A stretch of 57,991 bases of DNA, taken from positions 1-57,991 of the IMG/VR virus record IMGVR_UViG_3300046780_000140. One strand, given 5' to 3'. The DNA comes from a virus. Positions 4,205-44,028 of the stretch are shown here, piece by piece. Position numbers and translations under genes: made by a program. How positions within the stretch are numbered: the first letter of the stretch is position 1; every line of letters begins with the position of its first letter. The notes beneath the pieces are model-generated. The model was not told the origin of the DNA. It worked only from the letters and a program-made list of their open reading frames with translations, and did not search any database.

Positions 4205-4458
4205 CCGTCGGTTCCTTTATCGGTTTTCGCCCACCGGGCATTAGCCGCGTTCCGTGCTATCTCGACTCGGCGGTTGGTTGACAGGACTTCAGCCCGCGCC
4301 CGTCCACCTTTGGCGGGATCAGTGCGGTGGATGGCGTAGCCGAGACGGACGAGTTCATCCACTAGGACCACGCCCATTTGAGCGGATTCATATTTTGGGT
4401 GAGTGACTGTCTTAGCGATAGAGATGGCCGTCTCGACGGCTTCGGTGAGGTCGCTCAC
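4201..4458 (-). CDS. Unknown protein (85 aa)
   Basis: Begins VSDLTEAVETAISIAK and ends with a basic stretch NRRVEIARNAANARWAKT, possibly nucleic-acid binding. The GTG at 4458 overlaps the stop of the transglycosylase-like gene by four bases, which excludes the longer frame. No family recognised. Confidence 0.7.
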   Translation of the reverse strand: MSDLTEAVETAISIAKTVTHPKYESAQMGVVLVDELVRLGYAIHRTDPAKGGRARAEVLSTNRRVEIARNAANARWAKTDKGTDG

Positions 4459-5534
4459 GGTCGGTCCAGTGTCTCGCAGATGACCTCGGTGATCGCTTGG
4501 GATGCCCACGACTCGGGCGTCATCCCCTTATCCTTGATTGCCGCTGCCACCCAAAGCGGAATGGCGACCTGCACGATGCAAGTGTCCATCTCGTCATCCT
4601 CATGCTGCGCTGCGAAGTGGAGATCCATCGCTTCGATGCTCTTGCTGTTGGCGCCGCAGATGGAGCACTTGTGGAAGGTGGTTTCGATGCGGACGGTGGA
4701 GTTGGTGGGCATGAGTCCATAGTACATGCTCGGGTAAGCATCGTCAAGAGGAAATCTGGCGAGAACAGACGAAGATGGTCGCAGCGGGGTTCCTGACCAC
4801 GATGATCCCGAAATGGCGTCACGATGCACGGGAAGCGAAGGGTGTTCGAAAGTGCTCATGCCTGGCAACATCTGCGAGCACTCCAACCCGTACAACCATC
4901 TGCCCAGTTCGCCAGCCCCTCGCTCAGACCGAGAGGTCGCATGGTCCTCGGCCAGTTTGCGGCGCCGGAACCGGAGGAACGTGCCATCGGCGCTGTTGCA
5001 TCCCATCGCCCGCGCCCGCTCCATCTTCCAGCGACTGTTAACGCGTCCCATATGCACCCACTTGCCGTGGTTGCGGGCTTGCTGGCAGAGGCCCTCGGCT
5101 TCCCTGCTGATCTTCCACTCCTGCCTCGGATGAGCCTCGTTGCGCTTCCCGCCCACGAATAGGACATCGAATGCCTCCCACGGCCACACAAGCCGCTCTG
5201 CGCCGTCCTGGGCGACCAAGGCGACAGGGAACCCCATCTCCCGGATGATCCCCGCGAACTCCATGCCGCGGCGCAACGATTCGACGGCGTCCGGGTAGCA
5301 GTCTGGTGACACAGCGTAAAGGCAGCGGTCACGGGGAACGGTGTCAAGCCAGTCAAGGTAGATGTCGGCGTCCGAGAAACCCATGCCGATGTCCGCCCCA
5401 TGCCACGGGTAGCGGGGGACACGGCGCATGTATCCGTTCGTGAACCGGGTTATGACGAGTCCGACGCCAGCGGCGATCAGTCTCGGTTCGTCCTCATCAT
5501 TCGTCGCCCCCGTCAAGTAGATGATGGCGATCAC
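4455..5534 (-). CDS. tRNA-guanine transglycosylase/DpdA-like protein with C-terminal zinc finger (359 aa)
   Basis: Resembles phage queuine tRNA-ribosyltransferase-like (DpdA-type) proteins, which swap a guanine for a 7-deazaguanine base. Features in order: VSPDC (75-79), VAQDG (107-111), FVGG (126-129) with a following EWK, HMGRVNS (161-167) and SADGT (181-185), the spacing of this TIM-barrel family. Residues 290-311 form a C2H2 zinc finger (CSIC, then HFAAQH), an unusual tail about 70 residues beyond the enzyme core. The GTG at 5534 overlaps the QueF-like stop (GTGA). It is coupled to QueF-like and transporter genes, which supports a base-modification role. Whether the substrate is DNA or tRNA cannot be read from sequence. 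Confidence 0.65.
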   Translation of the reverse strand: MIAIIYLTGATNDEDEPRLIAAGVGLVITRFTNGYMRRVPRYPWHGADIGMGFSDADIYLDWLDTVPRDRCLYAVSPDCYPDAVESLRRGMEFAGIIREMGFPVALVAQDGAERLVWPWEAFDVLFVGGKRNEAHPRQEWKISREAEGLCQQARNHGKWVHMGRVNSRWKMERARAMGCNSADGTFLRFRRRKLAEDHATSRSERGAGELGRWLYGLECSQMLPGMSTFEHPSLPVHRDAISGSSWSGTPLRPSSSVLARFPLDDAYPSMYYGLMPTNSTVRIETTFHKCSICGANSKSIEAMDLHFAAQHEDDEMDTCIVQVAIPLWVAAAIKDKGMTPESWASQAITEVICETLDRP

Positions 5535-5776
5535 GCCGTCACTTCCACATGGAGGCCCGAAGTCGTCCACCATGTTGTCACTTCGGCGCCAGTGTGCTTC
5601 GCTATCTCTTGGGTCAGAACCTCATGGGTGACCACCTGATCTGTGAAGGACCGGAGGTATTCGGCCAGCGCCGCCAGCTCGGTCGGCTCCGAATAGACGA
5701 GACGCACATGGCCGATGTCGATCTCGTCCTTGAAGGGACACAGATGGGATATCTGAGCCGTGACAGTGATCCTCAC
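5531..5776 (-). CDS. Minimal QueF-like preQ0-processing protein (81 aa)
   Basis: T-fold protein of the QueF type (preQ0 reductase or amidotransferase relatives). HLCPFKDEIDIG holds the catalytic pair Cys13 and Asp20, the same seven-residue spacing as Cys55 and Asp62 of Bacillus QueF; YLRSF and THE (His51-Glu52) match the SLK-YL..HE segment. At 81 residues it is about half the usual length, essentially one core. The GTG at 5776 overlaps the transporter stop by four bases. It lies between a preQ0-type transporter and a transglycosylase, so conversion of imported preQ0 before or after insertion is the likely job. Reductase versus QueF-L amidation is undecided. Confidence 0.72.
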   Translation of the reverse strand: MRITVTAQISHLCPFKDEIDIGHVRLVYSEPTELAALAEYLRSFTDQVVTHEVLTQEIAKHTGAEVTTWWTTSGLHVEVTA

Positions 5777-6342
5777 GCTGCGACAACCCGCTGGCGTGGT
5801 AGGTGTCGTCGGACGGTGTAAGCGACCGGCGTGGCGAGCGCCACCACTATGGCCTTGACGAGTCCCAACTGCCACCACCCCGAATACGAACGGAACGCCA
5901 GTTTCACGAACACCGCCGAGTCGACCAGCGAACCGATCCAACCGGAGATGACCACGGCCCGCAGAAACATGCGATCAGCGAGAGGCGTGTAAATCAATGC
6001 GTCCATTGTCTCGGAGATAGCGAAGGCGCAGCCTGACGCTACCGCCAAAGCGGGCGAGGCGAGCCACCATGAGAGGATGGTGCCGAGAGCAATAGCGAAC
6101 CACGTCCAACGTCGACCAAGAACGAGCTGGGCGACATCCCTGAGCACGAATGCCAGCCCGACCCATACGACACCGGAGGCGACTGGTCCGAGTCCCGGAA
6201 CATGCCAGAATCCGAAATGCTTGAGCCAAGCATTCGCGATAGGAATGGTGGCAATAAAGGCGATCAGCGTCGTCCATCCGGTGCGCTTCATTGGCGATTC
6301 TTCGGTGGTCATAATGCCCCTCATTCTAGTCGGTCGATTCAT
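5773..6342 (-). CDS. YhhQ/VUT-family queuosine-precursor transporter (189 aa)
   Basis: Integral membrane protein with about six hydrophobic segments, first near residues 22-40. Features fit the YhhQ family (preQ0/preQ1 import): an RDVAQLVLG segment after the third helix and CAFAISETMDALIY before the fifth, matching the family's D-x-x-Q/E and F-x-x-x-E/Q-x-x-D patterns. The ATG at 6342 has GAGGGG at the right distance and overlaps the upstream stop. First of the three-gene 7-deazaguanine module; it would let the phage use a precursor made by the host or taken from the medium. Confidence 0.8.
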   Translation of the reverse strand: MNRPTRMRGIMTTEESPMKRTGWTTLIAFIATIPIANAWLKHFGFWHVPGLGPVASGVVWVGLAFVLRDVAQLVLGRRWTWFAIALGTILSWWLASPALAVASGCAFAISETMDALIYTPLADRMFLRAVVISGWIGSLVDSAVFVKLAFRSYSGWWQLGLVKAIVVALATPVAYTVRRHLPRQRVVAA

Positions 6343-6644: not shown

Positions 6645-6967
6645 ACGGTCCCGATCCACACGCGGGCATAGTCGGCATGGTCGTACAAATCGCTCCACCA
6701 GCCGTCGAACTCGTCCACGTCTTCGGCCTCAGCCAAGTGGCAGTCGATAATCTCCCGAACACCGTCGAGCTCATCGGGGTCGGCGTCGATGTACCAGCGT
6801 GACATTTTGAGCCTCGCCACGATCGCATCCCGTCGCTGCTCGAAGGTGATCGACTTGTCGTGGAATACGTCCTTGAGGTCGATCTTCTCCGACCAGATCG
6901 GTTTCCCTGCCGCCCTCAAATCTGCCGCTAGGTGGAGCATCGCCACCTTGTGATCCGGGGTGGTCAC
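6641..6967 (-). CDS. Unknown acidic protein (108 aa)
   Basis: MTTPDHKVAMLHLAADLRAA, then a conserved-looking Asp/Glu-rich C-terminal half with several Trp and Tyr. ATGA overlap with the upstream gene gives the start. No motif assigns a function. Confidence 0.7.
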   Translation of the reverse strand: MTTPDHKVAMLHLAADLRAAGKPIWSEKIDLKDVFHDKSITFEQRRDAIVARLKMSRWYIDADPDELDGVREIIDCHLAEAEDVDEFDGWWSDLYDHADYARVWIGTV

Positions 6968-8205
6968 GACGCCGCGCCGAGGTTCAATGCGAGAGCTTCC
7001 GTCGCCACTTTGGCTCGCAACTTCTCGAGGCGCAGCCGCAGGTCCCCGTCAGACTCGTCCTTCGACACGCGTCCCTTCGGGTCCAGGTCCACGATCGCGG
7101 TCACCAGGTCTGCTCGGTCCATGTCGGCAGGGGCCGGGATCGGGGTCTGTGCGGCTTGCTGTGGCGTTTGCGGGGGCTCGGGGGCAGTGGTGGTGGGGGA
7201 AGGCGCAGAAGGGGGCTGAGGGGTGGCTATGGCGTCAACAGGTTCCCATCCGGCCACGAAGGTCACAGCCTCGTCGAAACGGTCGGCGGTCAGGTTCGTC
7301 GGTGCCCCGAACTTGGCCCGGAACGCCCGCATGCAGTCGGCCACCCGCGACGACGGGCGCAGAGCGTTGATCCGTTCCATGAGCGCCCCGAGGTCTGGTG
7401 GCGGCTCCGTCCTTGACGGCTCGTCGTCCGATGGCTCAGGGTCGTGCGGCTCCCCGGTGCCGAGCGCCGGAACCGGGGCCGGCGCGCCTAGAGCGGAAGG
7501 TGCCGCACCTTGGCCGATGGCGATACCAGCGGTTCCCGCCATGATCGACTCGGTGGTCACCGAATGAAGCGCCAGGACAGGCACCCCGAAGTGACGGGTC
7601 TGGCCTTGGTCGATGTCGGTCCGCTGCTCGATGATGAGCGAGGCGGGGATGAGCCGCAGGTTCTCCAACGCCCCTTCCAACAGGTCGACGGTACCGGGCA
7701 TCTCGATCCCAGCGTGCAGGCTGGACGTGGTGACCCGCCACACGCCGACATCGGGCAGGCGGGGCAGCACGACGCTCAACCGGGTCATCGCCTTGCACGC
7801 CTTCCCGCGGCCGGCGAGCGCCGAACGTTCGGCCAGATCGGCGGGGCATTTGCAGACCTCGCCGTCCTCCGTCGTCGCACCGCTGCACCGTCGCAGGCAT
7901 CCGCCGCCCGACCACATCTCCCACGACTGGCTCAACGAACCGGGCGGGATCAGCACATCCAACGTGTCGACATCGGTGTACAACTCCCACTGGATCCCTT
8001 CGCCCGGTGCGTCCACCCACTGCCGTACCTCCCCGCCGTACAACTCGGCGGCATGAATGAGAAGGACCTGCGACGGGGAGGTCATCCGCCACTCACTCAA
8101 CTTGTGGGGCCGAGACTTGTTGTTGCTTGTCGGCACCTTGTCACCTGTCCGCAACCGACCAAGTTCCCTCAGCCGGCGCGGCAGCCCGAGTCCCATCCCC
8201 GTCAT
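6964..8205 (-). CDS. Gp3-like recombination directionality factor family protein (413 aa)
   Basis: Matches the phiC31 Gp3-like family in actinophages: GLPRRLRELGRLRTGDKVPT near the start, then ELYGGEVRQW, IPPGSLSQSWEMWSGGGC and a Cys-rich stretch (CLRRC, CKC), then TRLSVVLPRLPDVGVWRV and GIEMPG. The C-terminal 150 residues are Pro/Ala-rich with a charged helix. Gp3 redirects serine integrases to excision, but many strictly lytic phages carry relatives with no integrase, so another DNA role is possible. The ATG at 8205 overlaps the HIRAN gene stop. No integrase lies in the window. Confidence 0.78.
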   Translation of the reverse strand: MTGMGLGLPRRLRELGRLRTGDKVPTSNNKSRPHKLSEWRMTSPSQVLLIHAAELYGGEVRQWVDAPGEGIQWELYTDVDTLDVLIPPGSLSQSWEMWSGGGCLRRCSGATTEDGEVCKCPADLAERSALAGRGKACKAMTRLSVVLPRLPDVGVWRVTTSSLHAGIEMPGTVDLLEGALENLRLIPASLIIEQRTDIDQGQTRHFGVPVLALHSVTTESIMAGTAGIAIGQGAAPSALGAPAPVPALGTGEPHDPEPSDDEPSRTEPPPDLGALMERINALRPSSRVADCMRAFRAKFGAPTNLTADRFDEAVTFVAGWEPVDAIATPQPPSAPSPTTTAPEPPQTPQQAAQTPIPAPADMDRADLVTAIVDLDPKGRVSKDESDGDLRLRLEKLRAKVATEALALNLGAAS

Positions 8206-8831
8206 ACCAATCCCCCTGTCCTCGTTTGCCGTTCTTGGATGTAGACCTCGACCAGCGCCGCCCGCATCGCCTCGATGCCGTCCGGTACCGACAGGTCGCG
8301 GGTCACCAGTTCGTAGTTGACGACACCCCACCCTTCCTTGGCTACCGCCTCCCGAATCACGTCTTCGACGGTGGCCGAACCCGGCTCGATCGTGGGCTCG
8401 CAGCGGGTGAGCCGAACATCGACTCCCGGATTCCCCGGATTATCCGGGTGTGTGCGAACCCCGACCAGTTCGCATCGCCATTCGACACCCGCCGCCAGGT
8501 CGGGTGCGATGCGGGCAGCGACAGCGCGGGGAAGATGGCCGAGCATGGACGGCACCACGTCACCGAAATGGACTTCGACGGCGTTGCGGTCGTACTCGTT
8601 GTCGGGACGGTGGCGCAGCAGGCCCGGAACGGGTGACGGGTTGTCGGGGTCATCCCAATACCTCTCGCTCAGCAGGCGTTCCAGGTGGCGCACGTTGAGC
8701 GGGTATCCGTCCACGAAGGACATGCCGACGAGTGCCACCGAGACGACATCCGGCAGGTTTGCGGGGATGGTGCGACGGCTCAGCACCCGTTCACGCTCGG
8801 CAGCGATCCGCTCCGCAGTCCAGTGGCTCAC
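8202..8831 (-). CDS. HIRAN-domain protein (209 aa)
   Basis: HIRAN domain at about residues 30-130: VALVGMSFVDGYP, then DNEYDRNAVEVHFGD and GHLPRAVAARIAP, the family's N-x-Y/F-D-x-N-A-V core and following helix. HIRAN domains bind DNA ends and stalled forks. A GTG start at 8831 overlaps the upstream small gene by four bases. It may assist recombination or replication with the Gp3-like neighbour; inferred. Confidence 0.75.
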   Translation of the reverse strand: MSHWTAERIAAERERVLSRRTIPANLPDVVSVALVGMSFVDGYPLNVRHLERLLSERYWDDPDNPSPVPGLLRHRPDNEYDRNAVEVHFGDVVPSMLGHLPRAVAARIAPDLAAGVEWRCELVGVRTHPDNPGNPGVDVRLTRCEPTIEPGSATVEDVIREAVAKEGWGVVNYELVTRDLSVPDGIEAMRAALVEVYIQERQTRTGGLV

Positions 8832-9500: not shown

Positions 9501-9545
9501 GGGACTTACGATACACCCCTAGCGCCTACCCGTCAAGTCCCTATC
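9501..9545 (-). promoter_or_regulatory. Leaderless promoter P1 (TTGACG-17-TATCGT)
   Basis: On the minus strand TTGACG (9536-9531), a 17-base spacer and TATCGT (9513-9508) are followed by seven bases and the GTG of the next gene. The same layout, with 15 identical bases around the -35 and 13 more in the spacer, recurs at 23486-23530. Overlaps the 3' end of the upstream gene. Confidence 0.75.
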
Positions 9546-10299: not shown

Positions 10300-10699
10300 G
10301 GTGAACCACCATCTGCATGGGCGGAATCCGCTCCCGTCGCCCGTCCGCATGGACGCGTTCGTAGCCGACACCGAAAAGCGCCACGTCGAGTCCCAACTGC
10401 TCTCGACGGCAACCGGCGCAGAGGGCCGGTCCGCCGCAGTGGTTCTTGACGCCATCGGGGTTCGGGAGGACGTGACCGTGACCGCACTTCTCGGACTCGG
10501 GGATTGCTGCCAGTACGATCGCAGCGAAATCGACGGCCGCACCGAACTCGCCAGCGGCCACCTTTGGGGCGACAGGGCGGATTCGGCCGTCCCATTTATC
10601 GTCAGGGTCGTAAGCTCCGCAACCGCCGCACGGCCCAAAGGCGAAGTCGTGACAGCACCCGATACAGCGACCGGTCGGAGGTCGGTACTTGTCAGGCAT
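10292..10699 (-). CDS. Cys-rich zinc-binding protein (135 aa)
   Basis: Starts MPDKYRPPTGRC with CIGCC, CGGCG, CGHGH and CAGC clusters, suggesting two zinc sites. The start at 10699 overlaps the upstream gene by eight bases. No catalytic motif recognised. Confidence 0.7.
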   Translation of the reverse strand: MPDKYRPPTGRCIGCCHDFAFGPCGGCGAYDPDDKWDGRIRPVAPKVAAGEFGAAVDFAAIVLAAIPESEKCGHGHVLPNPDGVKNHCGGPALCAGCRREQLGLDVALFGVGYERVHADGRRERIPPMQMVVHRV

Positions 10700-11537
10700 G
10701 GGAGCGCTCGGGCATCTCGTCCCACAGCACGCCGTCAAGCAACCGTCCGGCGGCCTTCTTGCCGACTCGGACCATAGCGCCAGGAAGGTCACCGACCTTG
10801 CACCATGGCCGGTCAGCCGGGCCAAGATCCATGAACTCTCGATGGCATGCCAACGGTAGCCATTCGCCCCACTGCTTGAAATGGAAAGGGACGCCAGCCG
10901 TTCCGCACTGGTCCCGCAGTCCCCGCGCCCAATCGGGGTGCATTGGATGAGCTTTCGCCCCCGACTCGCCGCCGCAGAGAATCCAGTTCACGCGGTCGGC
11001 ACCCAGCCACGGCGACACGTCAAGCGGCGACAGTAGCGGCTCGCACGATAGGAAGTGGACGGGCGCGGGGTTCGCCAGAAGGTGCGGGATCCGTTCGTCG
11101 GCGCACTTCTGGTTCTCCGTCGTAGTGCCAAGCCACACATTCTCGGGTGCGGTCACCCACGGCACCATCCTTGCGATGTTCTCCGGTCGCTTCGTCAGTA
11201 GCAGCCAGTCCAGCCACGGCGTCCTACCGATCAGTTCCCATAGTCGTTCCCGGTGCGGTGGCAGAGTGGGGTGAGCGTCGAACACGTCGGCCATCGATGC
11301 GCAGAAGATCCGTCGTCGGACTCCCTCGGCCTCAGCCTTCCGGTTCCATTTCAGCGGTTCATTCCAATGGGCGTCCCCGAAGAATCGTCGGTCCCCGTTC
11401 TTACCCCACACATCCAGTCCGAGCCGATGGGCGAACGTCTCCGCATAACAGGAACGGCAGGCATCGCTCACCCGAGCACATCCCCACCAGCAATTGAACG
11501 TGGAGTCACACCAGGAGATCTCGGTGCTCTCACCCAT
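10692..11537 (-). CDS. Phage Gp37/Gp68 family (DUF5131) protein (281 aa)
   Basis: Family signature at the N-terminus: TFNCWWGCARVSDACRSCYA, which holds the conserved cysteines Cys16, Cys20, Cys27 and Cys30, reminiscent of radical-SAM cluster ligands. It continues with WNEPLKWNR, SMADVFD, WLLLTKRPENI and FLSCEPLL, all typical of DUF5131. The family is common in actinophages and chromosomes; its reaction is not established. Full length for the family. Confidence 0.88.
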   Translation of the reverse strand: MGESTEISWCDSTFNCWWGCARVSDACRSCYAETFAHRLGLDVWGKNGDRRFFGDAHWNEPLKWNRKAEAEGVRRRIFCASMADVFDAHPTLPPHRERLWELIGRTPWLDWLLLTKRPENIARMVPWVTAPENVWLGTTTENQKCADERIPHLLANPAPVHFLSCEPLLSPLDVSPWLGADRVNWILCGGESGAKAHPMHPDWARGLRDQCGTAGVPFHFKQWGEWLPLACHREFMDLGPADRPWCKVGDLPGAMVRVGKKAAGRLLDGVLWDEMPERSHA

Positions 11538-23485: not shown

Positions 23486-23530
23486 GCCTCAGACACTACA
23501 CCCCTAGCGCCCGACCGTCAAGTCCCTATC
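23486..23530 (-). promoter_or_regulatory. Leaderless promoter P2 (TTGACG-17-TAGTGT)
   Basis: TTGACG at 23521-23516, 17-base spacer, TAGTGT at 23498-23493, then seven bases and ATG at 23485. Nearly the same DNA as P1 at 9501-9545, including GATAGGGACTTGACG. Confidence 0.75.
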
Positions 23531-36901: not shown

Positions 36902-37450
36902 TCATGCGTGCCACGAACCATTGCCCCAAGATCCGAATCGACAGGTCACGGATATAGTTCCAGTATCTACAAACCGAGCGCCCTTGTCCAGTAGGTAATT
37001 CCACTGAGCCCAGTCATTCCAATGACGCCCGTTCTGGGGTCCTACCCATCGATCACACACCGATGATCGAGCAATAACGCAGGATGGTGAACTAATCCAG
37101 TTAGTCCTACGGAGATCCTCAAAATCAGAATGAAAGGGCTCCATGCTTTCTCGGGGGCGTCCCTCAAGAGTGAACCTTGCCACGATCACATCGTGATCGT
37201 CCATAAACTTCTCGGCAAGAGCGAGATGTTCGGGATGCATTAGATCATCGTCGTGAAGAAAACTATACCATTCGCAATCCGTAGAACGTTGCAATCGCTC
37301 CATATTGCGGCACTCACCCAACCGCCGAGGGTCGATGCCGATCACGATGTCGTCCGGTTGACGGGTTTGCGCGTGGACGCTGGCGAGACATTCGGTGAGA
37401 AGATGCGCCCGCTCGGGCAGCGAAACGATCAGCGCCGCTATCGTCGGCAC
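36902..37450 (-). CDS. Family 2-type glycosyltransferase (182 aa)
   Basis: GT-A fold: IAALIVSLPERAHLLTECL, QTRQPDDIVIGID and the metal-binding triad FLHDDDL (Asp67-69). It is shorter than usual, with a compact acceptor end (HWNDWAQWNYLLDKG). Abuts the plus-strand HNH gene tail to tail. GTG at 37450 overlaps the next glycosyltransferase by 13 bases. Confidence 0.82.
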   Translation of the reverse strand: MPTIAALIVSLPERAHLLTECLASVHAQTRQPDDIVIGIDPRRLGECRNMERLQRSTDCEWYSFLHDDDLMHPEHLALAEKFMDDHDVIVARFTLEGRPRESMEPFHSDFEDLRRTNWISSPSCVIARSSVCDRWVGPQNGRHWNDWAQWNYLLDKGARFVDTGTISVTCRFGSWGNGSWHA

Positions 37451-38190
37451 GGGTCCAGCACGACCTGTTGGCTCACGTACTCTTTCCACCACACCTCGAG
37501 GTCGGCGTCGGTCAACGCCCCGAGGTCACGCCAATGCTTGCCTTCCGTCAAGGCGAGGTTGGTGGCGTCGTAGGCAGCTTTCCCGATCCGCACCTTGTGT
37601 GCCAGATGGGCGAACGAGCGGTACTGGAACTCTTTGATGTGGAGGTCACCGATCAGGCCGCGGTCGGCACCGGAATGGTCCACCTGATGGTTCCCCTGCC
37701 AGACACGGACACCCGGCTCATACCGGAACGCCACTTTCATGCACCGCTTCCGGTCGGGGAGCCGGTGGACGATGCGTCGGGTCGGGTCCGGGTCGTCACC
37801 GTCGATGTCCGGTTGCGGAACCATCTCAAACGTGGGGGCACGAAGGACAGGCACCGGAGCCTCGTTCAGCACGTCGGCTATCGTTCCGCCCTCCGTGGCG
37901 TACCACCATTCGTCGGCGTCGAACGGGACCACCCAGTCCGCCCCGAAATCTTCGCCCGCCATCTCCGTTAGGCGTGTCATCTTGGCCGACTGGTAAAACG
38001 CGGGGTCGTTGTCGTCCACGACGGTCAACGGGAACTCGGTCGTCAGGGAGTCGAGGATCGAACGGGTGCCATCCGAGGACATGTTGTCGGCCACGATGAT
38101 CCGGGTCATGCCCTCAGCGAACATGTGACGCAGGATCAGCTCCGCGATATCAGCTTCATCTTTGAACATGGCTACCCCGACGAGGTTCAC
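37438..38190 (-). CDS. Glycosyltransferase, GT2/GT92-like (250 aa)
   Basis: VGVAMFKDEADIAELILRHM and ADNMSSDGTRSIL give the nucleotide-sugar part; DWVVPFDADEWW is the DxD motif. Later His-rich strands (GNHQVDHSGADR, KEFQYRSFAHLAHK) resemble Glyco_tranf_2_4 proteins. GTG at 38190 overlaps the methyltransferase stop. It probably acts with adjacent enzymes on one glycan. Confidence 0.85.
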   Translation of the reverse strand: MNLVGVAMFKDEADIAELILRHMFAEGMTRIIVADNMSSDGTRSILDSLTTEFPLTVVDDNDPAFYQSAKMTRLTEMAGEDFGADWVVPFDADEWWYATEGGTIADVLNEAPVPVLRAPTFEMVPQPDIDGDDPDPTRRIVHRLPDRKRCMKVAFRYEPGVRVWQGNHQVDHSGADRGLIGDLHIKEFQYRSFAHLAHKVRIGKAAYDATNLALTEGKHWRDLGALTDADLEVWWKEYVSQQVVLDPCRR

Positions 38191-38789
38191 TGGACGCGTT
38201 GCAGCACACGAATGGTGTGGCAACCCTCAATCTCATCGAACCGTGACGATGCGGCGGCCTCATCGACCACTTGGGCGATCGCAGGGATAGTGGTGTCATG
38301 GAAGGCCGCCAATCCGCCGATGGTCAGCCGTGAAAGCCAAGTGTTCGAGTCGAGTTTGCAACCGGCGTAGTCGTGGGCGGCGTCGATGAACACGAACCCG
38401 ACCGGCAGCGCCCACAACGGCCCGATCGTAGCCGTGGCGGCCACCACCGGGATGATGGTGTTGGTCAGACAGGCAGCGCGGATGGTTCGACGGAAGGCGA
38501 GCAGCGTGTCGTGCGCCCCGTCACCGTCCACCATTTCCGGGTCATGGCAGTCACGATCCGGTGCCATCTCAGGGGAGCCTTGATGGTGGTCGACGGCGAA
38601 CAGCACGGTGCCGTTCGCCTCGGCGGAATCACCGATCCAGATGGTCGACTTCCCGCAGTACGACCCAACCTCCAGGTATGGACCGGAGCAACGTAGGGCG
38701 AGGGAACGAAGGAACGGTCCTTCGTCGGGAAACAACCATCCCTTTGTCTGGTCGGCCAACCTGGCTCGGTCGTCGCTGATGGCTTCCAC
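38187..38789 (-). CDS. SAM-dependent methyltransferase, class I (200 aa)
   Basis: Motif I YLEVGSYCGKST (39-50), acidic loop FAVDHHQG (64-71) and VFIDAAHDY (133-141) fit the Methyltransf_24/TylF-type fold, often sugar O-methyltransferases. Its place between a glycosyltransferase and an acyltransferase suggests it decorates a sugar. GTG start at 38789. Confidence 0.83.
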   Translation of the reverse strand: MEAISDDRARLADQTKGWLFPDEGPFLRSLALRCSGPYLEVGSYCGKSTIWIGDSAEANGTVLFAVDHHQGSPEMAPDRDCHDPEMVDGDGAHDTLLAFRRTIRAACLTNTIIPVVAATATIGPLWALPVGFVFIDAAHDYAGCKLDSNTWLSRLTIGGLAAFHDTTIPAIAQVVDEAAASSRFDEIEGCHTIRVLQRVQ

Positions 38790-38792
38790 CGC

Positions 38793-39362
38793 TCAGCCGG
38801 CCCAAGCCCTCGCGGAACGGTACAGGTGTGATCGGTGAGCTGGGTTGCCGACCATCGTTTCGCCGGCTGGCACGTCACGGATCACCACGGCACCAGCACC
38901 GATGACGGCCCCTTTGCCGATCGTGATGCCACCGTGGATCACCACCGCACCTGCCCCGATGAACACGTCGTCCTCTACGGTCACTTCGCCCCCGAGGACG
39001 ACACCGGGGCAGATGTTCACGAACTCACCGACACGGCAACCGTGGCTCACGGTGGCGTTCGGCCCGACATGGCTGTGACGCCCCAGAACGGCCGAGGGGG
39101 ACACGTAGGCACCGGGGAACACGACAACGCCTGACGCGGCCTCCTGTACGGCTCTGGCGGCAATCTGGCGTCGTGTCTTCGGCCACGCGGCCCCGATCAC
39201 GAAGTCGGCTCCGGCGTACACGTTCACGGCGTAGGTGGATAGCTCCGGGTTGTCGTCGCAGAGCACAGCGTCAGGGTAGAGAGCCGCCAGTTCCTGCCCG
39301 TGGGCGCCAGCACCGAGGATCGCCCGAACCTTCCCAGCGTATTGCATTGTCAATCGGACCAT
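38793..39362 (-). CDS. NeuD/PglD-type sugar O-acyltransferase (189 aa)
   Basis: N-terminal Rossmann piece AILGAGAHGQELAALYPDAV, then left-handed beta-helix hexapeptides (VVFPGAYVSPSAVLGRHSHV, EDDVFIGAGAVVI, GKGAVIGAGAVVIR) and the VGNPAH end signature. It transfers acetyl or similar groups to sugars. Start ATG at 39362 or 39347; neither has a clear ribosome binding site. Confidence 0.85.
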   Translation of the reverse strand: MVRLTMQYAGKVRAILGAGAHGQELAALYPDAVLCDDNPELSTYAVNVYAGADFVIGAAWPKTRRQIAARAVQEAASGVVVFPGAYVSPSAVLGRHSHVGPNATVSHGCRVGEFVNICPGVVLGGEVTVEDDVFIGAGAVVIHGGITIGKGAVIGAGAVVIRDVPAGETMVGNPAHRSHLYRSARAWAG

Positions 39363-39718
39363 ACAAGGTAATTAGGTGACACACCATGAACATCCCGACA
39401 CACATCAAGATAGGACTGCCACCGTTCTGATTCGGCTAAAACTTCGGCCAACAGAACCCGCGATTCCTCGGTCAGACGCTCACGCCTTGTGACGGGTGCT
39501 GGAACTTGCTCGGTTAACCCGCATGACCCACAGGTCAGATCAACAAAGGGACGGACGATTGTCGAACAAAACGGCACCCCCACCTTGGTTGGTCTAGGTG
39601 CTGCGACGATGCATATAACGTCTACACGATCAACGGCCTTGTTAGCACAAGAGCAAGAGGTGTCCAGACTGTCCCACGCCTCCTGATCCTCTGGGCACCT
39701 CTTGCTGGGAGGAAACAC
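39350..39718 (-). CDS. Cys-rich protein (122 aa)
   Basis: CSCANKAVD and CGSCGLTEQ pairs in the first half suggest a zinc ribbon; the second half is helical (ESRVLLAEVLAESERWQSYL). GTG at 39718 just after the previous stop. Function unknown. Confidence 0.65.
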   Translation of the reverse strand: MFPPSKRCPEDQEAWDSLDTSCSCANKAVDRVDVICIVAAPRPTKVGVPFCSTIVRPFVDLTCGSCGLTEQVPAPVTRRERLTEESRVLLAEVLAESERWQSYLDVCRDVHGVSPNYLVWSD

Positions 39719-39719
39719 G

Positions 39720-39878
39720 CTAGAGCAGTTCCCCGATACCGAGCGCGATCAGGCCGACGAACACGGCCACCGTGAAGTCGTGGCCGTTCGGGTGCGACCC
39801 GATGCCAATGATGAGCACGAACACCGCTGCCACGATGGCAACCACGGCGCAGATTCGCTTGAGGGTCAACTGGTTCAC
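39720..39878 (-). CDS. Small membrane protein (52 aa)
   Basis: VNQLTLKRICAVVAIVAAVF and FTVAVFVGLIALGIGELL form two hydrophobic spans. GTG at 39878 overlaps the upstream stop by four bases. Confidence 0.68.
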   Translation of the reverse strand: MNQLTLKRICAVVAIVAAVFVLIIGIGSHPNGHDFTVAVFVGLIALGIGELL

Positions 39879-40009
39879 GACATCCCTCCTTGGATTTCGG
39901 CTAGATGCTGCTGTGCTTGGGCGAGTTGCCGCTGAGCACTTTCTACTGCGCCGACCGCTGCCAGCCACGCCTTCACTGCTTCACGTTGGGGGTCGGAACC
40001 TTCGCACAC
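39875..40009 (-). CDS. Very small helical protein (44 aa)
   Basis: VCEGSDPQREAVKAWLAAVG, then a Gln/Ala helix. GTG at 40009 is chosen for an AGGAGG seven bases upstream; a GTG at 39976 with a 4-base stop overlap is the alternative. Confidence 0.55.
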   Translation of the reverse strand: MCEGSDPQREAVKAWLAAVGAVESAQRQLAQAQQHLAEIQGGMS

Positions 40010-40359
40010 GGCCGTACCTCCTCTCCCCATGAGCACCGACCCACGGCGTTGACGCCATGATGGCGAGAGTCGGTGTCCCACATGGAACAGACCTTGCACA
40101 TTCTCAGGCCCATCCCGTTGTCAACGAAGTCGTGCGCTCGCACCATCTCGACCACCCGCCGCCGCTCCTGGTCCTTGTTGTTGAGCAAACAGGCTCCGCA
40201 GAGCAGGTCCATCCCGACAAGTTCAGGTTCAAGGCAGGAGCAAAACTGTCCGAGGTCGGCCTGCGCTCGGGCACGGAAGGCGATCCCGAGGATCGGTCCT
40301 ACCTGGCAGGGCGTGGCGTCCAGTGCCTCGCGTGCCTTAACAAGCAATGGATGAGTCAC
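39973..40359 (-). CDS. Zinc-ribbon protein (128 aa)
   Basis: Helical start (HPLLVKAREALDATPC), then CSCLEPELVGMDLLCGAC and MCKVCSMWDTDSRHH, giving about eight Cys for two sites. GTG overlaps the upstream membrane gene. Function unknown. Confidence 0.68.
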   Translation of the reverse strand: MTHPLLVKAREALDATPCQVGPILGIAFRARAQADLGQFCSCLEPELVGMDLLCGACLLNNKDQERRRVVEMVRAHDFVDNGMGLRMCKVCSMWDTDSRHHGVNAVGRCSWGEEVRPCAKVPTPNVKQ

Positions 40360-40484
40360 CGTTTCCGTCCTTGTCCTCGCACCGCGTTGTCGTGAATCCA
40401 CCGCCATGCCATCCACAACGGGAAGGCAACACCCAGCAGCACCATGACAGCGATCACCGTCCAGAACAGGACGTGCACTGTCAT
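40356..40484 (-). CDS. Very small membrane protein (42 aa)
   Basis: MTVHVLFWTVIAVMVLLGVA spans the membrane; a basic tail RGQGRKR follows. Overlaps both neighbours by four bases, which supports it despite its size. Confidence 0.62.
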   Translation of the reverse strand: MTVHVLFWTVIAVMVLLGVAFPLWMAWRWIHDNAVRGQGRKR

Positions 40485-41086
40485 AACCGCCACCCTTGTC
40501 CTCGTACCGCTCCGATGTGTCGGCACCGCGGCGGATCGTCACGGGCACCATAGAAGGCGAACTGGAGGCCAGCGTCAAGACACTGGCGGGTCATCCCCTG
40601 CTCGTTCGTGTCCGGGTAACTCATCTCCAACACCCGCCGAGGGATCAGACAAGGGTTACATGACCATCCCCAGTCCCGTATCGCACCGTGGCGAAGAAAC
40701 GTGCAGCCAGGACCGAACGATTCCTCGGTGTAAAGGAACGGGTCAAGGTGGACGATGCCACCCGCCGCGATCTCCAACGGGGAGAACGGCTCCCGCAGAA
40801 GCACCACTTGTGCGAGCGTCTGGTCCCAGTCAAGGATCGCAGCCAACATGGACAGGTCCACGTCGGCAAGGAAAACGAAGTCTTCCTCAACGGCCAGCAA
40901 ATAGTCGACTTCGGCCGTCAGTGCCCAGTCCCATGCCGCTTGTACCGCTCCCGCCATACCGAGAGTGTGGTCCCGGTCGTCAATGACCACCGACTCGTTG
41001 ATCGGTCGTAGATGGGCGTTCAACGAATCCTCGCATTGCGGCAGGTACAGGTCACCGCGATCCGAGATGTAGGCGAGGCCGATCAC
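40481..41086 (-). CDS. Glycosyltransferase-like protein (201 aa)
   Basis: GLAYISDRGDLYLPQCEDSL, HTLGMAGAVQAAWDWALTAE and LLAVEEDFVFLADV (an acidic DxD-like site) followed by PGCTFLRHGAIRDWGW suggest a compact GT-A enzyme. GTG at 41086 overlaps the upstream stop. Confidence 0.68.
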   Translation of the reverse strand: MIGLAYISDRGDLYLPQCEDSLNAHLRPINESVVIDDRDHTLGMAGAVQAAWDWALTAEVDYLLAVEEDFVFLADVDLSMLAAILDWDQTLAQVVLLREPFSPLEIAAGGIVHLDPFLYTEESFGPGCTFLRHGAIRDWGWSCNPCLIPRRVLEMSYPDTNEQGMTRQCLDAGLQFAFYGARDDPPRCRHIGAVRGQGWRL

Positions 41087-41373
41087 GGCTTGACGTTCCA
41101 ATCCCACCGTACCCACTCGTGCTCGGTGCCAATGTCCATACGAGTCAATATGGGATCGAGCCTATGAGGTACGTCGGCCTCGGGGAGATCGGAGTCTCTG
41201 GCGCATACCTCCACGAATCCCCACCGATCCACACCGGAAAGGGAGACGATCTGCGAAGTAGACGGCATACAAAGAGCCCGCTTGAGGTCTTCCTTTGATG
41301 TCAACTCAAGCGAGTTGCCACCGAGTACCTCACAGAGAAGTTCGTCCGACACTTGGAAGAAAGCCATTCTCAT
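41083..41373 (-). CDS. Unknown protein (96 aa)
   Basis: MRMAFFQVSDELLCEVLGGN, then mixed alpha/beta with several Trp at the end (HEWVRWDWNV). ATGA overlap with the upstream gene. No family recognised. Confidence 0.65.
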   Translation of the reverse strand: MRMAFFQVSDELLCEVLGGNSLELTSKEDLKRALCMPSTSQIVSLSGVDRWGFVEVCARDSDLPEADVPHRLDPILTRMDIGTEHEWVRWDWNVKP

Positions 41374-41645
41374 CCCGTTATCTCATAACGGTCAGGTTCC
41401 CGCGACTCCGCCAGGCGCTCGCACGCCTCGCGGAAGCCATGATCCTTGTGCTTCACGACCTCCATCGCTTCTTCTGGCGTCAGGAAATACTCTCCCTTGT
41501 CGCCACAGTATTTCCGGTAATAGGAAAGCGTCACTTCGGTCAACCCACCGTGGACATTCCGAGCCACTGACATCTTCCACAACCTACGATCCGTCGCTAC
41601 GATCTCGTCGTAGTGGGGTTGCGAAAAAGCCCGAGAGCCCTTCAC
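41370..41645 (-). CDS. Unknown protein (91 aa)
   Basis: Contains LSYYRKYCGDKGEYFLTPEE and a helical Glu/Arg end. ATGA overlap with the HNH gene upstream. Function unknown. Confidence 0.65.
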   Translation of the reverse strand: MKGSRAFSQPHYDEIVATDRRLWKMSVARNVHGGLTEVTLSYYRKYCGDKGEYFLTPEEAMEVVKHKDHGFREACERLAESREPDRYEITG

Positions 41646-42265
41646 TTCACTGTCGCCTTCCGCTGCGCCAAAATAGGAGGACGGTCTGATGCTCCTACCA
41701 GGCGCCTCTTTGCGACATAACGAGCATCAGCGACCGCTCGGCAGGCAACACAACTCCGGTATCCATTACCGGGTTGTCTATATAAATTCTCCCCGCTTAA
41801 AGCCCTCCCGCATGTAGAGCAGTGGGTTTTCCGAGCATTCCGGGCAGCCGGAGATTCGCCTCGCTCCTTGTTCACGGCCGCTGGTACGGCTTCCAAATGG
41901 GAGGGACGGACGCAACGCCGAACTCGACATAAATGGTCTATCTGCAAACCATCTGGTATCAACCCGTTGGCCCATTCATACGAAACCACATGAGCGCCGC
42001 GACGACTGTTCCCGATGGTAAAGACCCCGTATCCGTGAGAATTCCCCTTAGGAGTCCAGATCCAACAGGGACCCAAGTCGGGACGATTGACAGGAACGGG
42101 ACCGTCCTTACTGATCTTAGCCCAAAATCTTTCGGATGGTAAGGCAGAGTATCTGCATACATCGCTACAGAACCGTCGCTTGCGAGTGAGCGTTGAGCAT
42201 CCTTCTCGTTCGCATTGGTGGACAGGGTTCTTGTATACACGTCCTGACCATGTACCCTTTGGCAT
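41642..42265 (-). CDS. HNH endonuclease (207 aa)
   Basis: N-terminal zinc element (CEREGCSTLTRKRRFCSDVC), then CWIWTPKG, GYGVFTIG and the HNH_3 core HVVSYEWANGLIPDGLQIDH followed by RCVRPSHLEAV; a second zinc pair CSTCGRA and CVACR at the end. The ATG at 42265 has AAGGAGGGG upstream. Probably a homing endonuclease in the glycosyltransferase island. Confidence 0.88.
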   Translation of the reverse strand: MPKGTWSGRVYKNPVHQCEREGCSTLTRKRRFCSDVCRYSALPSERFWAKISKDGPVPVNRPDLGPCWIWTPKGNSHGYGVFTIGNSRRGAHVVSYEWANGLIPDGLQIDHLCRVRRCVRPSHLEAVPAAVNKERGESPAARNARKTHCSTCGRALSGENLYRQPGNGYRSCVACRAVADARYVAKRRLVGASDRPPILAQRKATVK

Positions 42266-42339
42266 GTCGGCACCCCTCCTTGGGTGTTGACCTGGCCGGG
42301 GGCGGTTACAGCCGTGCCCCGGCCCTTGACTCCTACATC

Positions 42340-44028
42340 TTAGTCGGTACATACGGCGGCCGATGACAACAAGGGTAACTTGTCGCGGTTCTGGTGCATC
42401 CAAAGCGATTCCACATCCAGCCCCCACTTGGCCGCAAAACGCGCCTCGTCACCCCACGCCAGCGCCGTTCTTTCGGCACTCTCGACGGTAGACTTCATGG
42501 GTTCAAGATGGCGAACAGCCGTGTTCACGCAGACTGTGAACCTTCCCGCCTCTCGGGTCTGTCGTTCAAGATCGCTATCGCTATAGAACCAAGCGAACTG
42601 CGGATCGAACCGGAGCCGGTCACTGACCTCACCGCGCACCATGAAGGCGAACCCGCTCATCGTCTGACCCGCCATCGAATCGGACTGGGTGCGGGCGAAC
42701 CCCTCAGGGGGAAGTTCCATCTCCCGGTGGTTAGGGTAACTGATCCAATGATCGTCGGACACCCGTAGCGCTGCCTCAAGGCGCGCCGCGAAATCGGATG
42801 GTATTTCGGTGTCGTCGTTCAGGACAAGCAGGTTGAAAAGGGGTGCGCCTTCCGTGTCGGCCGCTTCCCATGCCAACTGCCAACCTCGTTCCCACATCGA
42901 GGTCAGGGACCAACCGTGACAGTCAACGATCTGGTGTTCCACGTTCGGGGGGTGCGGCAGGTTCTCGTACCCGTTGTCCATGATGAAAACGGTTGTGCAT
43001 TGGTCGGCAAGTTGCGCCACCAGTGTCGCCAGCATCTCCGGCCGGTCCTTGGAGGCGATCACCGCGTAGGTGGGAAGCGCCGGTCGGCACGCCTCCTGCA
43101 ACGACTCCGACTCCGCAATGAACCGGCCCTCATCGGCGGTGAAACTTTTGACGTGTCCCAACCGGACCCCGGTGTGAACATGGACAGCAAACCCGAGAGC
43201 CTGTGCCCTCAAGCAGAAGCTCAGATCTTCCGAATATTCGTCGCCGGTTTCCTGTATCGCCTGCCCGTCATCCCCGATCTCATAGAACTTGGTTTCATCG
43301 AACCACGGCCTTGGCGGCGGGAACCTCAACCGGCCCTCAGGGGTCCGGGCGTCCCGCATCGCCTCAAGCACGGTGCGGTGCACCAGCAGGCAGGCGGCAC
43401 CGGTACCGGACACTGGGATCAGCGTGTCCGCGGGGTACTGGGTGAGTCGCCGCAACCGTTGAACACCGGGCACGAACGCATACAGCGTCGGCCAGATCGT
43501 CCGCGACTGGTCGTTCATCACAGCGAAACACAGGCCACCGACAATCGGCCGGTCCACCGGGTGCGCCGCCTCCACCAACCGTTCCACCAGGTCAGGGTCG
43601 AACACCATATCCGTGTCGATTTGCAGCAACCAGTCGGCGTCCGACTCTTTCAGGAACATGTCAACCAGCCGGTTCCGGTTTCGTGCAATCGTGGCACCCC
43701 CCTCCATGTCAAGGGAGCCGCCACCGTTCACGATCCTCTGCTTCCCACCCAGTTTCCTGCCATCCGGTCCCCGTCGCCCCACCGCGTCATATTGGAACAG
43801 GAACAGCATGGAGCGCATAAACTTGGCTTTCACGTCCTCGGGGTGAGGCCAGCCAATAATGACTTTCTCCTGATCCCTCGGCTTGATACGACTGGCGGGG
43901 ATGAGCAGTTCCCGACCCTCCGGTTCCGAATGGGGACCGAGGATGACGGGACCAGAATGGGGACCGAGGATGACGGGACCACCCTGTACTCGCTTCGGTG
44001 TCACGCGGCCGTTGTGAGGTTTGGTCAC
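42340..44028 (-). CDS. Double-domain glycosyltransferase (562 aa)
   Basis: Two GT-A domains. The first (about 55-320) has IARNRNRLVDMFLKESDADW and LLQIDTDMVFDPDL; the second (about 320-540) has YAVIASKDRPEMLATLVAQL and LLVLNDDTEIPSDF with FAWFYSDSDLERQTREAG. A perfect 27-base tandem duplication gives VILGPHSGP twice near residues 17-34. GTG at 44028 overlaps the upstream stop. Likely the largest enzyme of the glycan pathway; acceptor unknown. Confidence 0.85.
   Translation of the reverse strand: MTKPHNGRVTPKRVQGGPVILGPHSGPVILGPHSEPEGRELLIPASRIKPRDQEKVIIGWPHPEDVKAKFMRSMLFLFQYDAVGRRGPDGRKLGGKQRIVNGGGSLDMEGGATIARNRNRLVDMFLKESDADWLLQIDTDMVFDPDLVERLVEAAHPVDRPIVGGLCFAVMNDQSRTIWPTLYAFVPGVQRLRRLTQYPADTLIPVSGTGAACLLVHRTVLEAMRDARTPEGRLRFPPPRPWFDETKFYEIGDDGQAIQETGDEYSEDLSFCLRAQALGFAVHVHTGVRLGHVKSFTADEGRFIAESESLQEACRPALPTYAVIASKDRPEMLATLVAQLADQCTTVFIMDNGYENLPHPPNVEHQIVDCHGWSLTSMWERGWQLAWEAADTEGAPLFNLLVLNDDTEIPSDFAARLEAALRVSDDHWISYPNHREMELPPEGFARTQSDSMAGQTMSGFAFMVRGEVSDRLRFDPQFAWFYSDSDLERQTREAGRFTVCVNTAVRHLEPMKSTVESAERTALAWGDEARFAAKWGLDVESLWMHQNRDKLPLLSSAAVCTD
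43928..43981. repeat. Perfect 27-bp tandem duplication
   Basis: Two identical 27-base units, 43928-43954 and 43955-43981, inside the N-terminal coding part of the double glycosyltransferase. Frame is kept. Likely a recent slippage event. Confidence 0.9.

Follow-up and report, generated by a model that had tools for sequence, protein, structure and literature searches.

Three consecutive genes lie on the minus strand between positions 4455 and 6312 of the window, the whole stretch of DNA analyzed here, which is a linear IMG/VR virus record of 57,991 bases with nearly all of its genes on that strand. In reading order they encode a YhhQ, a QueF-like and a DpdA-like protein, and stop and start codons overlap as GTGA at both junctions within the trio and again where the trio meets the following gene. 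The first gene (5773 to 6312 after refinement, with an alternative ATG start at 6342) specifies a 179-residue queuosine-precursor transporter of the YhhQ/QPTR family (COG1738, PF02592). The second (5531 to 5776, minus strand) encodes an 81-residue single T-fold protein of the QueF-L type, predicted to be an amidinotransferase that would convert the preQ0 nitrile into a formamidine. The third (4455 to 5534, minus strand) is a DpdA-like frame of 359 residues, of which about residues 1 to 248 (4787 to 5534, minus strand) form a short DpdA-like guanine transglycosylase domain. These three coupled genes had been recognized in the preliminary description, and the recurrence of their order in independent contigs, far beyond chance, establishes the trio as a real module.

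Portal, capsid, prohead protease and tail genes, together with WhiB/Lsr2 genes, were found elsewhere in the window by Pfam scans, and on this gene content the source virus is probably a phage of Actinobacteria. A Gp3-like recombination directionality factor (6964 to 8085, minus strand; PF18897, E 4e-26) is encoded close upstream of YhhQ, suggesting that the phage is temperate, and a HIRAN-domain protein (8202 to 8831, minus strand; E 7e-7) is also encoded close to the module.

The YhhQ protein possesses several hydrophobic segments and exceeds the curated cut-off of PF02592 (E 3.8e-9, 37.5 bits against 27.2); its match to TIGR00697 (E 3.6e-8, 33.4 bits) is under that model's cut-off of 50.95, and it matches phrog_4899 with an E value of 2e-32. 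It is a predicted importer of preQ0 (or preQ1), and its homologue in Arthrobacter phage Aoka is gp38. Profile searches over all six frames, in which positive controls were detected, found no FolE, QueD, QueC or radical-SAM gene in the record, which is linear and may be missing an end. The preliminary description had likewise seen no de novo preQ0 genes.

How widespread is this arrangement? Searching IMG/VR with single window proteins as queries gave no matches, and profile searches were required. Sixteen distinct contigs carry the QueF-like gene, among them the window, Aoka and one from Nocardia farcinica. YhhQ is directly upstream of it in 15 of the 16 and DpdA directly downstream also in 15 of the 16, the single contig without DpdA ending 29 bases further on. 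A profile of the short DpdA found 380 relatives among viral contigs, and the 80 best were retained. YhhQ is found in the flanks of short DpdA in 56 of these best 80 contigs, at a distance of 150 bp or less in 43. QueC is found beside short DpdA in 3 of the 56 contigs with YhhQ versus 7 of the 24 without (Fisher p 0.007, or p = 0.0008 if three like contigs are counted once, kinship and cut contigs being ignored). YhhQ and QueC therefore appear to avoid each other beside short DpdA, and import seems to take the place of synthesis. The route proposed in the preliminary description, import with processing and insertion in dependence on salvage, is well supported by the gene order, the missing synthesis genes and this recurrence; that description had left the middle step open.

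Does the middle protein belong with the QueF nitrile reductases or with the archaeosine synthase QueF-L? As a lone query the window protein matched no PDB chain and reached E 1e-3 with PF14489, under the cut-off, whereas in the PDB its family profile matched QueF-L (5jyx, E 1.7e-7) as well as QueF (E 5e-6). The AF2 model has a pLDDT of 97.4, and in a PDB fold search its top 13 matches were all QueF-L (5k0p/5jyx; TM 0.94, 1.3 Å, E about 1e-5), compared with E about 1e-2 and 3.2 Å for the QueF reductases. Among 15 sequences of the family, H11, C13, P14, E18, D20, G22, E33, L37, H51, E52 and T72 are invariant. C13, D20 and E52 align with Cys55, Asp62 and Glu97 of Bacillus QueF, which are the thioimide cysteine, the acid and the substrate glutamate of that enzyme (PMC5372742), and being common to QueF and QueF-L they do not discriminate between the two. 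All 15 lack the motif E(S/L)K(S/A)hK(L/Y)(Y/F/W), described as the NADPH-binding element of QueF (PMC5372742), its first lysine being replaced by His or Ala and its second by Arg or Ala; the Aoka protein also fails the motif, and the window sequence at this site is ELAALAEY. The PRGG stretch of QueF is replaced in the family by W-x-T-A-G. As controls, the QueF of phage Dp-1 (ESKSLKLY) and gp82 of HVTV-1 (ELKSLKYY) keep both the motif and PRGG, and the DNA of these two viruses contains mainly dPreQ1 (PMC6884629). Loss of the motif here and its retention in the dPreQ1-making viruses argue for amidination and against reduction, and the resemblance of the modeled fold to QueF-L likewise favors amidination. 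The predicted product would be deoxyarchaeosine (dG+) instead of dPreQ1. The products of the QueF family may not be clean, because HVTV-1 DNA also contains a small amount of dG+. A residue-level rule for separating reduction from amidination in phage QueF-family proteins can thus be offered, and it is open to test because Aoka, which carries the trio, is a cultured phage with a laboratory host.

The DpdA-like protein matches phrog_15826 (E 5e-36), and its core is 39-49% identical to phage proteins annotated as "DpdA-like tRNA-guanine transglycosylase". Its relatives are about 200-240 residues long (a ~205 aa family), and D48, D78, Q109, G111, H161, R164, N166 and D183 are invariant in 48 of them; the window copy is unique among the 48 in having isoleucine in place of N49 of the conserved DNG motif. 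The preliminary description had named failure to align with TGT/DpdA structures as one outcome that would count against its proposal. The model, with pLDDT mostly above 90 in the core, does align with the TGT structures 3blo/4gh3 (E about 4e-4, rmsd 4.7-4.8 Å), although other TIM barrels score equally well or better. In a viral library, at E ≤ 1e-3, the functionally named matches were phage queuine tRNA-ribosyltransferases only (E 6e-8 and 2e-4), one of them the full-length DpdA of Arthrobacter phage Sonali. The short DpdA profile matched DpdA1 plus TGT modestly, at E 3.8e-4 and a low hhalign probability of 36; of the three candidate catalytic or base-binding aspartates, D48 and D78 pair with invariant aspartates of DpdA1/TGT, and D183 is off by three residues at the end of the alignment. 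No meaningful alignment was obtained with E. coli Tgt alone, and a PDB sequence search with the profile returned chance-level matches only. The CxCxxC zinc motif of tRNA-TGT, present in E. coli Tgt, is found in none of the 48 relatives and is likewise absent from the DNA-acting enzyme of phage 9g. A DpdA2 label was dropped because the comparison with the DpdA2 of Vibrio phage nt-1 failed (hhalign E 0.49 over 19 residues). Judged by sequence, the short family lies outside DpdA1 and DpdA2, the two classes compared. Short DpdA, full-length DpdA and preQ0 synthesis genes are found together in Sonali (L003), Vibrio phage R29Z (L007) and a further contig (L053), and short DpdA adjoins full-length DpdA in some E. 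coli phages; its role may therefore be something other than base insertion.

The final ~110 residues of the DpdA frame do not belong to DpdA. A fused zinc-finger domain was the first reading of this C-terminus, and it was set aside: the two nearest relatives (L009 and L010) end at 236 and 243 residues, whereas the window frame reads on, and residues 249-320 of the model are of low confidence and disordered. For these reasons the frame is taken to run on into a small downstream gene that shares it (4455 to 4712, minus strand). This gene would encode 85 residues from ATG 4712, among them a C2H2-type zinc-finger motif (CSIC-X12-HFAAQH), and no phage homologue of it was found. These features are suggestive of either a lost DpdA stop codon or two genes that share a frame by chance, although the frame may be a true DpdA/zinc-finger fusion. 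With N49I and fusion to the downstream gene, the window copy of DpdA could be weakened.

The closest known counterpart of the module is in Arthrobacter phage Aoka (ON755180), where gp38-gp39-gp40 match the trio in gene content, order and strand, gp38 being annotated as "membrane protein" and gp39 as "hypothetical protein"; unlike the window frame, its DpdA has 208 residues and no extra C-terminal part. The archaeal QueF-L of Pyrobaculum calidifontis (5jyx/5k0p) likewise has one T-fold, the thioimide Cys, the acid Asp and the Glu, and no NADPH motif. It differs in acting on preQ0 in tRNA, with nitrogen from free ammonium (PMC5485725), whereas the phage protein, about 18% identical, adjoins a DNA-type transglycosylase. 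The DpdA1 phages 9g, CAjan and Rosebush (Hutinet et al. 2019) also use a guanine transglycosylase for preQ0 in DNA, and CAjan-type phages carry YhhQ too, but the DpdA1 phages encode FolE-QueD-QueE-QueC and a DpdA of about 300 residues that is distantly alignable. The nt-1 DpdA2 is also a divergent phage DpdA without the usual signatures, but at 464 residues it is unalignable with the short family. In Mycobacterium phage Bunnies and Rhodococcus phage ReqiPine5, YhhQ directly precedes a short DpdA with no QueF-L; such two-gene phages have no amidination gene, and their expected product is dPreQ0 or a derivative. A PAPS-reductase gene immediately follows the YhhQ-DpdA pair in ReqiPine5 (L004). 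For Sphingomonas phage MMDA13, a QueF-L giving archaeosine in DNA has been predicted by its authors (PMC7472734), but unlike the window trio that phage has the full preQ0 synthesis pathway.

Taken together, the module could be viewed as a salvage-only 7-deazaguanine system for DNA, a reading to which we give slightly better than even chances as a whole, comprising import by YhhQ, insertion by DpdA, amidination to dG+ and resistance to restriction. YhhQ would supply the infected cell with preQ0 (7-cyano-7-deazaguanine) that other organisms have made, and the short DpdA would put this preQ0 in place of guanines in phage DNA. Archaeal QueF-L modifies preQ0 already in tRNA, and by analogy the QueF-L-type step would follow insertion into DNA: Cys13 would attack the nitrile to form a thioimide, from which ammonia would release the formamidine, leaving dG+ in the DNA. 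A positively charged base in DNA could then confer resistance to host restriction enzymes; DNA as the target and protection against restriction are suggested by what relatives of DpdA do. Hosts of such phages may lack a preQ0 pathway. The occurrence of 7-deazaguanines in phage DNA and the protection they give are already known, as are a large group of phages with DpdA but without preQ0 genes and the presence of YhhQ in some phages, uncorrelated with any phage group (Hutinet et al. 2019, PMC6884629). The same study left open where the DpdA-only phages obtain their precursor and whether QueF-family proteins reduce or amidinate; for phages with DpdA and without preQ0 genes, the gene linkage is a strong answer to the question of source. 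What would be new, and is proposed tentatively as nearly an even bet, is a DNA-acting T-fold QueF-L in actinobacteriophages, joined to an importer and a minimal (~205 aa) transglycosylase, with dG+ formed purely from scavenged preQ0. The papers searched, which did not extend to key reviews and the 2023 work on new DpdA subfamilies, contained no description of a salvage trio that includes a QueF-L-type protein, and the novelty is provisional. If the proposal is true, a community metabolite governs phage resistance to restriction, and the DNA of a phage of soil-type bacteria can be shielded with no synthesis of the analogue by virus or host.

What else might the middle protein do in the same salvage module? 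It could be a nitrile reductase that leaves dPreQ1 in phage DNA, which we consider unlikely. The protein does fall in the QueF Pfam/TIGR family, phage proteins named QueF-L in 2019 turned out to accompany dPreQ1 (PMC6884629), and the QueF-L family retains part of the QueF motif, its E, L/S and basic residue (ELHSLR); against this, both motif lysines are missing in 15 of 15 sequences and PRGG is also missing, the two dPreQ1 controls keep both elements, and the structure is far closer to QueF-L. Less probable again is that the protein forms a different derivative, or only binds preQ0 and keeps it as a thioimide or passes it to DpdA, so that the DNA would contain dPreQ0 or dADG. Import and insertion do seem workable alone, because 46 of the 80 short DpdA loci (the best 80 of 380) have YhhQ without the QueF-like gene, and free preQ0 forms very stable thioimides with QueF (PMC5372742), but the invariance of Asp20, Glu52 and Cys13 suggests turnover rather than mere binding.

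Two further readings are improbable, and concern the target of the module and the state of this copy of it. The TGT superfamily consists chiefly of tRNA enzymes, and phages that have preQ0 genes but lack DpdA have been proposed to direct them at tRNA (PMC6884629), which would fit a module that supplies 7-deazaguanine to tRNA, as queuosine or an archaeosine-like base, and aids phage translation. The absence of the zinc motif from all 48 short DpdA proteins, and the fact that no QueA, QueG or QueH family was noticed among the general Pfam scan matches, make this the least probable of the readings considered. Barely more credible is decay of the window copy, with the DpdA stop and a conserved Asn lost, so that the module would be inactive here and active in relatives. 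N49I, unique in 48, the extension of the frame past the ends of the two nearest relatives, and the changes H35A, S36A and A73S in the window QueF-L point in this direction; yet the three frames are each intact and overlap one another, and the catalytic Cys, Asp, His and Glu and the DpdA aspartates are kept.

A promoter-like site (TTGACG-17-TACTAT, 4719 to 4747, minus strand), a consensus match that is suggestive at most, lies within the DpdA frame 6 nt ahead of ATG 4712; one such site was found, and chance alone would give 0.9 in 5 kb; a transcript that begins at this ATG is possibly leaderless. Further TTGACG-17-TANNNT sites are present at 9508-9536 and 23493-23521 (minus strand), one of them 8 bases before a GTG, and loose promoter-like sites number four in all versus 1.7 expected. 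Elsewhere on the minus strand, the window encodes a DUF5131 (Gp37/Gp68) protein (10692-11537; E 3e-82), and its late region, placed at about 37400-44000, contains several Pfam matches to glycosyltransferases, hexapeptide transferases and methyltransferases.
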